This document shows positions 5,072 through 6,633 of a DNA stretch of 64,000 nucleotides, piece after piece. Position 1 is the stretch's first letter. Each line of letters begins with the position of its first letter. Made by a program: the position numbers and the translations under genes. This stretch comes from Natronospira proteinivora. GTDB lineage: Bacteria; Pseudomonadota; Gammaproteobacteria; Natronospirales; Natronospiraceae. The stretch is taken from NCBI RefSeq assembly GCF_024170465.1, contig NZ_JALJYF010000002.1, positions 1,054,001 through 1,118,000 on the forward strand, in the 5' to 3' direction. The notes below the pieces were generated by a model. It saw nothing but the letters and a program-made list of their open reading frames with translations, made no database searches and was not told the DNA's origin.

Positions 5072-5638
5072 ATGACTACGCAGACCTTGCAGAATGGAAT
5101 CATCGTTCTGGCCACTGTCATGATTTTATCCGCCTGCGCGGGACCCGAAGAACGTTCCGAGGGCCAGGCCGCATTCTCGGGCCCGGTGTCGGTGGCGTCC
5201 TTGCTGACGGTGGAGGAGTTCCGGGCTGCTGGGTTGGACCGCCTGAGCGAGGAAGAGATCGCGGCCTTGAACCAGGCACTTGGCCGGGCACTGGCCGCTG
5301 GCGATGAAGGCCCTCGGGCCGACGAGGGTCCTATGGCCGCCTGGGAAGTCAGTGAAAGCAATCCCTTCGCCACCTTTGGCATGGGTGACGAACATCCGGC
5401 CTCAAGGGCCCAGGATGAAATGCCGGCCAAACTTGCCGAGGCGATTCCCCGCTGGCAATCCGATACGCGCATTTTTCTCGAAAATGGCCAGATCTGGCAA
5501 GTGGCCGGCACTGTCCGCTCAGGACTTCCCAGTGCCGAGGCTGGCGATCGGTTGATCATCAGTCGAGGCGCATTTGGCAGCTTTCGCCTGTCCCTGGAGG
5601 GTAGCAATCGTACGGTGAGTGTGCGGCGTAAGGAGTAA
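5072..5638 (+). CDS. Predicted lipoprotein, unknown function
   Basis: A 188-aa protein with a lipoprotein signal, ending ILSAC, Cys22 being the lipidation site. Residues about 43-70 (LLTVEEFRAAGLDRLSEEEIAALNQAL) look like a short helical hairpin. The C-terminal part (about 128-186) is a small strand-rich domain, IFLENGQIWQVAGTV and then GDRLIISRGAFGSFRLSLEG, a pattern I have seen at the end of uncharacterised secreted proteins of gammaproteobacteria. I cannot assign a role. It is a single-gene unit; a minus-strand RNA gene ends just beyond its stop codon. Confidence 0.65.
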   Translation: MTTQTLQNGIIVLATVMILSACAGPEERSEGQAAFSGPVSVASLLTVEEFRAAGLDRLSEEEIAALNQALGRALAAGDEGPRADEGPMAAWEVSESNPFATFGMGDEHPASRAQDEMPAKLAEAIPRWQSDTRIFLENGQIWQVAGTVRSGLPSAEAGDRLIISRGAFGSFRLSLEGSNRTVSVRRKE

Positions 5639-5677: not shown

Positions 5678-5715
5678 AAAAAAAACAGCGCCAGGCTCCA
5701 AAAAGCGTGGCGCTG
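5678..5715 (-). terminator. Rho-independent terminator of the minus-strand RNA
   Basis: Read on the minus strand, CAGCGCCA at 5715-5708 pairs with TGGCGCTG at 5693-5686 across a 14-base loop and is followed by eight T (5685-5678). No comparable T run follows on the plus strand, so it acts on transcripts entering from the right, namely the RNA described at 5678-5916. It also lies downstream of the cytochrome c gene. Confidence 0.85.
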
Positions 5716-5916
5716 CAAGCTCGAAAGAAAAGGGGCGCAGACCCGATGGCGGGTGGGGGGAGTCCATTCTTTGCCTTGGGAGGGGGGGTCCGGGCAAAGA
5801 AGCACTTGCTTTCGGCAATCCCGCCATCGTAGGGCCTACGCCCCTTAGACCGGTGATTTTGCGCCCCCATCTTTCGATGGGTTTACCCTTTATCGTGCAA
5901 TTGCATCGTGCAATTT
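5678..5916 (-). ncRNA. Candidate structured small RNA with C-rich loops
   Basis: No protein gene fits this stretch, but it has a near-consensus promoter, nested stems and a terminator. In transcript order there is a GAAA-tetraloop hairpin CCCATC/GATGGG (5881-5866). Then comes an outer stem TGCGCCCC/GGGGCGCA (5867-5860 with 5739-5732), inside it a perfect 10-bp stem (5829-5820 with 5753-5744), and inside that a 9-bp stem TTCTTTGCC/GGCAAAGAA (5801-5793 with 5775-5767). Its 17-base loop contains CCCCCCC and CTCCC, and a second C-rich stretch (CTCCCCCCACCC) lies on the 3' side. T-rich sequence after the outer stem (5731-5724) offers an earlier end. Two 11-bp direct repeats, ATCGTGCAATT on the plus strand at 5892-5902 and 5905-5915, mark the 5' end. 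I cannot match it to 6S, 4.5S, tmRNA or RNase P RNA. C-rich loops could pair with ribosome-binding sites; that is inference. Confidence 0.6.
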
Positions 5917-5922
5917 CGGCCT

Positions 5923-5951
5923 ATTGTAGACCGCGCGCGGCCTTCTGGCAA
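5923..5951 (-). promoter_or_regulatory. Near-consensus sigma-70 promoter for the small RNA
   Basis: On the minus strand, TTGCCA (5951-5946) and TACAAT (5928-5923) are separated by exactly 17 bases. Each hexamer differs from consensus at one position. Transcription would start near 5916 and run toward 5678. It lies about 40 bases past the stop codon of the cytochrome c gene. Confidence 0.75.
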
Positions 5952-5984
5952 GGAAGGCTGACCTCTGCGGTAGCCTTCCTTGCC
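5947..5984. repeat. 13-bp perfect inverted repeat after the cytochrome gene
   Basis: GGCAAGGAAGGCT (5947-5959) and AGCCTTCCTTGCC (5972-5984) are exact reverse complements around a 12-base centre. The repeat begins 10 bases past the cytochrome c stop codon and overlaps the -35 element of the small-RNA promoter. No T run follows on either strand, so it may be a U-less transcript-end hairpin or an operator. Confidence 0.75.
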
Positions 5985-5994
5985 CGTGTCCGGT

Positions 5995-6633
5995 TCAGCG
6001 CCGGTACTGTTCCATGATTTGGATCGGTCCAGGCTGACTGGCATAAAAGGCGGCCAGATCCCGCATGTCCCGGTCGCTCAGGTCTTGGACCTGGCCGACC
6101 ATGACGGCATTGTCTCGGGTGCCGTCCTGATATTGACGCAGGGACTTATACAGGTAGTCCGCATACTGTCCGGCCAAGATGGGGCTGGGTGGTGCCATAC
6201 CTTCAGGACTATTGCCGTCATCACCGTGGCAGGCGGCACAGCCCCGGTCCTGGGCCACTTCTTCCCCGCGTGCCGGATTGCCCACCGACCGAGCCCGCTT
6301 ATAGGCGGCTTTTTCTTCCCGCGGCATGCTGGCCAGATAGGCTGCAATATCCTGGATCTCCTGTTCGCTGAGGCCTTGGGATTGCCCCACCATGGTGGGG
6401 TGCTCCCGTTCCCCATCCCGATAGGCTTCCAGGGCATGCACAATGAAGGCCGAGTGCTGGCCGGCGATCTTGGGCACTTTATAGGTGGGGTAGGCATTGG
6501 TGTAGCCGTCCACACCGTGACAACCGACGCAGGTGTCGGACAGGACTCGGCCCTCTTCCGCATCGCCCTCGGCGCGGGCATCAAAAGCCGTCAGAAGGCC
6601 CAGCAGGGCCAGGGATAGCAGTGCGGTGCGCAT
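5995..6633 (-). CDS. Diheme cytochrome c, cytochrome c4-like
   Basis: A 212-aa periplasmic electron carrier. A signal peptide ends at DARA (residue 21). Two c-type haem sites are visible, CVGCH at about residues 35-39 and CAACH at about 131-135, each heading a class I cytochrome domain. Distal Met ligands are likely in HPTMVGQSQGLS and NAVMVGQVQDLS, the repeated pattern of cytochrome c4 and related c553-type diheme proteins. Such proteins pass electrons to cbb3-type or other terminal oxidases. In Pseudomonas the cytochrome c4 gene lies near polA, engB and a small-RNA gene; here a small RNA follows but engB is absent. The gene ends just before the inverted repeat at 5947-5984. Confidence 0.9.
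   Translation of the reverse strand: MRTALLSLALLGLLTAFDARAEGDAEEGRVLSDTCVGCHGVDGYTNAYPTYKVPKIAGQHSAFIVHALEAYRDGEREHPTMVGQSQGLSEQEIQDIAAYLASMPREEKAAYKRARSVGNPARGEEVAQDRGCAACHGDDGNSPEGMAPPSPILAGQYADYLYKSLRQYQDGTRDNAVMVGQVQDLSDRDMRDLAAFYASQPGPIQIMEQYRR

Follow-up and report, generated by a model that had tools for sequence, protein, structure and literature searches.

A stretch of 64,000 nt from Natronospira proteinivora (the window) contains, next to a cytochrome c4-like gene, a highly structured minus-strand region for which a new regulatory RNA had been proposed from the sequence alone. This raises the questions of which kind of RNA might be encoded, which signal it might respond to, and on which genes it might act.

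Anatomy of the RNA gene

The original prediction named a promoter, three stems, a GAAA-tetraloop hairpin, two C-rich stretches and a terminator ending in eight T, and all of these elements were recovered (Table 1). The promoter TTGCCA-N17-TACAAT agrees with the consensus at 10 of 12 positions, with 0.1 such matches expected in shuffled sequences, and the aptamer described below starts 25 nt after it. The scan placed a comparable -35/-10 pair shortly ahead of the aptamer in 5 of 6 relatives; in the sixth (G003) it chose another site, and TTGTAT-N17-TACACT was spotted by eye only. An inverted repeat, AAGGAAGGCT...AGCCTTCCTT (5945-5986), lies 3' of the cytochrome c4 gene and is probably the terminator of that gene; it shares bases with the -35 box of the RNA promoter.

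The fold predicted for the full 243 nt has a free energy of -110 kcal/mol, compared with -82 +/- 5 kcal/mol for shuffled sequences (z -5.7). The segment from aptamer helix P3 to the U tract has z-scores of -4.4 to -6.1 in each of the seven sequences compared, and its shape is common to all of them. The three stems are GATGGCGGG/CCCGCCATC (9 bp), CTTCTTTGCC/GGCAAAGAA (about 10 bp), and CAGCGCCA/TGGCGCTG (8 bp), the last of which is followed by the eight T. The tetraloop hairpin turned out to be helix P2 of the aptamer, and the two C-rich stretches are mostly unpaired in the predicted folds. It had also been stated that no reading frame explains the region. In agreement with this, the ORFs found there continue across the terminators, with overlaps on both strands, and a protein-coding explanation was rejected.

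Table 1. Coordinates of the RNA gene, its elements and the adjoining genes in the window
Feature	Position	Strand	Basis
Sigma-70-type promoter TTGCCA-N17-TACAAT (TTGCCA 5946-5951; TACAAT 5923-5928)	5923..5951	-	Motif scan
c-di-GMP-I riboswitch aptamer by Rfam match, full length, 87 nt	5811..5897	-	Rfam RF01051, 82 bits, model 1-87/87
Aptamer helix P2 with GAAA tetraloop (GAAA 5872-5875)	5866..5881	-	cmscan alignment
Switching strand, shared by aptamer P3 (part of it) and terminator T1 (5' strand)	5820..5844	-	Alignment, folding
Hairpin H1 (5793-5802 with 5767-5775) bearing C-rich loop 1 CGGACCCCCCCTCCCAA (5776-5792)	5767..5802	-	Folding
C-rich loop 2 TGGACTCCCCCCA, single-stranded, between H1 and T1	5754..5766	-	Folding
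T1 3' strand CCCGCCATCGGGTCTGCGCCCC, complementary to aptamer P3 (13 + 9 bp)	5732..5753	-	Pairing in 7 sequences
U tract TTTTCTTT after T1	5724..5731	-	Sequence
Terminator T2: stem 5686-5715, eight T 5678-5685	5678..5715	-	Sequence, folding
Cytochrome c4-like di-haem gene, upstream	5995..6633	-	PF00034/PF13442, two stretches
Lipoprotein-like gene, convergent, downstream; no Pfam family	5072..5638	+	ORF and Pfam search

A c-di-GMP-I aptamer at the 5' end

The original prediction named a match to a known RNA family as a result that would speak against it. An Rfam search with cmscan matched RF01051 at 82 bits, the gathering cut-off being 35 bits. On the evidence of this match, the 5' end of the RNA is a c-di-GMP-I riboswitch aptamer. 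The claim of a new regulatory RNA thus fails for the 5' end, and it survives in altered form for the whole molecule as a putative stand-alone c-di-GMP-sensing RNA without a known cis gene. No Rfam family was matched by the C-rich 3' part. The location had been compared with that of Spot 42 and ErsA, with the remark that the sequence resembles neither, and cmscan indeed returned no match to either of them. The sX13 family was not matched, and RF01051 alone reached its gathering score in the window and the relatives; an identity with Spot 42, ErsA or any other sRNA of Rfam was rejected.

When the ligand contacts of Vc2 were mapped by hand onto the Rfam alignment, the position equivalent to G20 was found to be G (5886) and not A, which we take as an argument for c-di-GMP over cGAMP as the ligand. 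By the same mapping, A47 and C92 correspond to A 5859 and C 5815; all three are ligand-contact residues of Vc2 (PMC4744006). Among the seven sequences, three pairs of P2 are changed on both sides.

The host genome of 2.93 Mb has two RF01051 matches. The other one (L002 1501-1587, minus strand; C1:1294773-1294859) is an ordinary cis c-di-GMP-I switch: a Shine-Dalgarno (SD) motif and an ATG come 257 nt after the aptamer start and lead to genes for a pilin of the Spore Coat U/Csu type and for a chaperone resembling PapD. The two matches contrast a cis switch with a stand-alone RNA inside one genome.

Conservation in Natronospirales

The RNA, with promoter, aptamer, hairpin, two or three C-rich loops and terminator, is present in 7 genomes from 5 genera and 3 families of Natronospirales. 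Three of them belong to the same genus, one to another genus of the family, and three to genera of two other families. In 11 sampled members of genus g4 and in G004, it was absent or only weak aptamer-level matches were obtained. Among 369 genomes of the class and 398 of the phylum, nothing above 36 bits was found besides the known members (103-148 bits), a bound on the spread that is to be read with the stricter filters of these large searches and with the fact that the members themselves built the model. Weak matches in the wider samples were aptamers with other platforms or plain hairpins and were rejected as relatives. No homologues were found on plasmids.

The platform of the window is 97% identical to that of G002 and 92% identical to that of G001. 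For the pair of the window and G002, which represent two species, the identities are 78% for the cytochrome c4 DNA and 75% for the sequence past the U tract, and aligned shuffled sequences reach 71%.

A putative terminator that competes with the aptamer

Upstream of the T8 terminator T2 lies a second, intrinsic-terminator-like element (T1), which was absent from the original prediction. Its 13-bp helix GGGGCGTAGGCCC/GGGTCTGCGCCCC (5832-5844 with 5732-5744) lengthens the 9-bp stem and is followed by TTTTCTTT. The T1 fold and the aptamer fold are mutually exclusive, because T1 takes the aptamer's own P3 strand. A T-rich tract is found at the position of the T1 tail in 7/7 sequences; in the same comparison, no T2 was seen in the relatives.

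Pairing in the T1 helix is strongly conserved. Standard pairs make up 94.8% of the cells, compared with 41-52% in slid controls, and five pairs are changed on both sides (e.g., C-G to U-A and G-C to A-U), conservation and covariation being judged from seven sequences only. The aptamer helices likewise show paired changes, and compensatory changes in stems, which had been suggested as a check, are thus seen in both elements. As the 5' strand of T1 is also part of the aptamer, the informative part of the T1 covariation is the tracking by the 3' strand.

When the growing transcript was folded, the aptamer fold stayed close to the best ensemble, at a difference of no more than about 2 kcal/mol, up to position 5755. 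The change occurred between 5751 and 5731, and by 5731, where the U tract starts, the aptamer fold was 21 kcal/mol behind the T1 fold, the energy of the ligand being outside the model. In this model, the folding course is what an ON switch decided co-transcriptionally should look like.

The gene neighborhood

Each of the seven genomes has a cytochrome c4 gene upstream of the RNA and in the same orientation (at a distance of at most 120 nt in four and at most 1.7 kb in three), and the adjoining gene named in the original prediction is confirmed as such by PF00034/PF13442. On the downstream side, 5 of the 6 genomes with a visible neighbor have a convergent gene, which varies: it is lipoprotein-like in the Natronospira family and a DUF2721 gene in another family. 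The exception is G007, in which the downstream gene has the same orientation as the RNA; it is leucine-carboxyl-methyltransferase-like and lies about 50 nt beyond the U tract. The RNA may control this methyltransferase gene in cis, but cis control cannot be its conserved role. The arrangement typical for cis regulation, with the element upstream of the controlled gene and on the same strand, was not found in the window.

A conventional cis riboswitch is nevertheless suggested by the cis-regulatory type that Rfam assigns to RF01051. It could act on an unrecognised short ORF or on a same-strand TraB/PrgY/GumN gene (start 4936), or be a relic left behind after gene loss. The methyltransferase gene of G007 would fit such an arrangement, as would the TraB gene, whose orientation matches that of the RNA in the window, G002 and G003. 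We regard this explanation as quite unlikely. The TraB gene is about 790 nt past T1, behind T2 and an opposed gene, and it was not found in the surroundings of G006 and G008. No short ORF of the window is set off from the terminators, and a relic would not retain a platform identity of 97% or a covarying terminator.

The convergent gene leads to a different possibility, antisense gating, in which c-di-GMP would cause read-through of T1 into this gene and thereby lower its expression. The S-box antisense RNA of Clostridium acetobutylicum is a precedent for riboswitch-gated antisense RNA. The exclusion between T1 and the aptamer predicts read-through upon c-di-GMP binding, and a convergent gene is close by in 5 of 6 genomes. 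However, the gene differs between the families (lipoprotein or DUF2721), in the window T2 should halt read-through ahead of it, and the conserved C-rich loops would be left unexplained. Antisense gating is thus unlikely.

C-rich loops and the proposed mode of action

The C-rich hairpin H1 and the loops are dispensable for the aptamer/terminator switch, yet they are conserved. An H1-equivalent hairpin with a C run is present in 7/7 sequences, and the loop 2 site has a run of four to seven C in 7/7. In the distant families, the sequence of H1 is changed, yet two or three C runs (four C or longer) stay unpaired. Counted over the 75 nt after the aptamer, such runs number two or three in each of the seven sequences and zero or one in 18 other c-di-GMP-I loci.

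We propose that the RNA is a stand-alone, c-di-GMP-gated regulatory RNA that acts in trans on G-rich ribosome-binding sites in the manner of sX13, a reading to which we give about an even chance of being right. It is favored by the combination of conserved sensor, termination choice and C-rich loops and by the precedent of sX13. The identity of the aptamer, the mutually exclusive folds, the conservation and the lack of a cis gene are computational results, and transcription, the ligand response, the direction of the effect, the active form and the targets in trans are inferred. The RNA would be about 190-240 nt long, with the c-di-GMP-I aptamer at its 5' end, and c-di-GMP could lock the aptamer while the polymerase transcribes about 60 nt beyond it. 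At low c-di-GMP, 5732-5753 would invade P3, and the resulting long hairpin with its U tract would stop transcription at about 5724, yielding a compact RNA of about 190 nt that displays the two C-rich loops. With c-di-GMP bound, T1 would be blocked and transcription would read through to T2 at 5678 here, and beyond in the relatives; the product would be longer or less stable. Like those of sX13, the C-rich loops would base-pair in trans with mRNAs at G-rich ribosome-binding regions, and c-di-GMP would set the amount or form of a base-pairing sRNA. That a single RNA senses c-di-GMP and signals to many mRNAs via C-rich anti-SD loops, with no protein effector, is a more tentative proposal, held at somewhat less than even chances. 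If true, it would show how c-di-GMP reaches a set of mRNAs directly. The genome has 37 GGDEF matches in 2.9 Mb (G000), which indicates a rich c-di-GMP network.

Control of loop exposure by the ligand was also considered. Constrained folding gave no support for it, as in most sequences imposing the aptamer fold hardly altered how open the C runs were. For this reason, c-di-GMP is proposed to change the length, amount or stability of the RNA.

Searches of the genome for possible target sites identified no target. The exact complement of loop 2, GGGGGGAGTCC, occurs at one other site, which is inside an ORF and not at its start. Exact matches to the loop complement GGGAGGGGGG were not in excess, with six in the genome, including the gene itself, versus eight for the reversed pattern. 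Six G before an ATG were found 225 times and the reversed pattern 80 times, a comparison that is not fair because the frequencies of ATG and GTA are unequal.

Comparison with known RNAs

Riboswitches almost always regulate the gene that follows them, and free-standing ones are known for B12 and SAM. EutX/Rli55 and SreA have B12 or SAM as ligand, and their targets are a response regulator or prfA mRNA; to our knowledge, none of them senses c-di-GMP. In these cases, a riboswitch controls or belongs to a trans-acting RNA (PMC7266159). The aptamer class, riboswitch-sRNAs for other ligands, and merRNA as a non-coding c-di-GMP riboswitch are therefore already known. In a literature search that covered mainly freely accessible papers, no description of a c-di-GMP riboswitch joined to C-rich base-pairing loops was found.

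The RNA shares with the c-di-GMP-I riboswitches (GEMM-I, RF01051) Vc2 and Bc1 the full-length aptamer, the tetraloop, the ligand-contact residues and a transcription-terminator platform, and Bc1 likewise carries two successive terminators (PMC11218506). Unlike Vc2 and Bc1, it has no same-strand gene to control, its platform contains conserved C-rich loops, and its gene position is kept across three families. The ON design, in which the terminator uses aptamer strands, is common to the RNA and the cGAMP riboswitch of Geobacter pilM, where terminator and aptamer are mutually exclusive (PMC9262584). The pilM riboswitch controls a downstream pilus gene in cis, whereas here G20 is kept, c-di-GMP is expected over cGAMP, and there is no cis gene.

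The C-rich part resembles sX13 of Xanthomonas, which represses mRNAs with G-rich motifs near the start independently of Hfq (PMC3771888). In common with sX13 and other C-rich sRNAs such as RsaA, the RNA is highly structured and has single-stranded loops with four or more consecutive C. sX13 differs in being 115 nt long, located beside polA, without an aptamer, and reported only in Xanthomonadaceae (PMC3771888).

The one free-standing c-di-GMP case that was found is merRNA of Bdellovibrio bacteriovorus, the function of which is only proposed. merRNA is a non-coding RNA of 445 nt that contains a c-di-GMP riboswitch and lacks a conserved ORF downstream, is reported only in Bdellovibrio, and is proposed to be a reservoir (PMC3627812). 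A similar role would make the RNA studied here an abundant sponge that buffers c-di-GMP, with a 3' part that merely stabilises it. The anatomy is alike, a c-di-GMP aptamer in a non-coding RNA without a conserved ORF (PMC3627812), and the promoter is good. However, a terminator that dissolves the aptamer fold would work against a role as a sponge, since the non-binding fold is favored by 17-21 kcal/mol once the RNA is complete. The conservation of the C runs would also be unexplained, and we consider this explanation very unlikely. The consulted text on merRNA (PMC3627812) mentions neither C-rich loops nor a switching terminator, both of which are present here. A conserved free-standing c-di-GMP switch with C-rich loops would be a compact test system, in which binding, terminator choice and loop-dependent repression can be assayed separately.

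Other c-di-GMP-I RNAs in Gammaproteobacteria

The model built from the members also led to a second, different and apparently stand-alone c-di-GMP-I RNA in family f142 (L049, L089-L091, L093-L102). It has a conserved TATAAT-type promoter and an RF01051 aptamer, followed by the invariant GATATAGTGGGGGCTT with a G-rich loop and usually also by CTTTGCG, which is complementary to the aptamer core CGCAAAG. Of 60 genomes, 18 contain a single copy of GATATAGTGGGGGCTT, compared with 0 matches for the reversed pattern, and the aptamer was found just upstream of GATATAGTGGGGGCTT in 10/10 loci checked. The upstream gene is divergent. The downstream gene is convergent (DUF885-like or oligoribonuclease-like, as judged by eye) except in 4 of the 10 loci, where a same-strand ORF follows; the two of these ORFs that were translated read as GGDEF. 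This second group suggests that free-standing c-di-GMP-I RNAs may have arisen more than once in Gammaproteobacteria.

At locus L052 of another family (G215), the downstream sequence CTGGTACCCC pairs with GGGGTACAG of aptamer P3, and an ORF follows on the same strand. This pairing suggests that platforms that invade P3 are not confined to Natronospirales.
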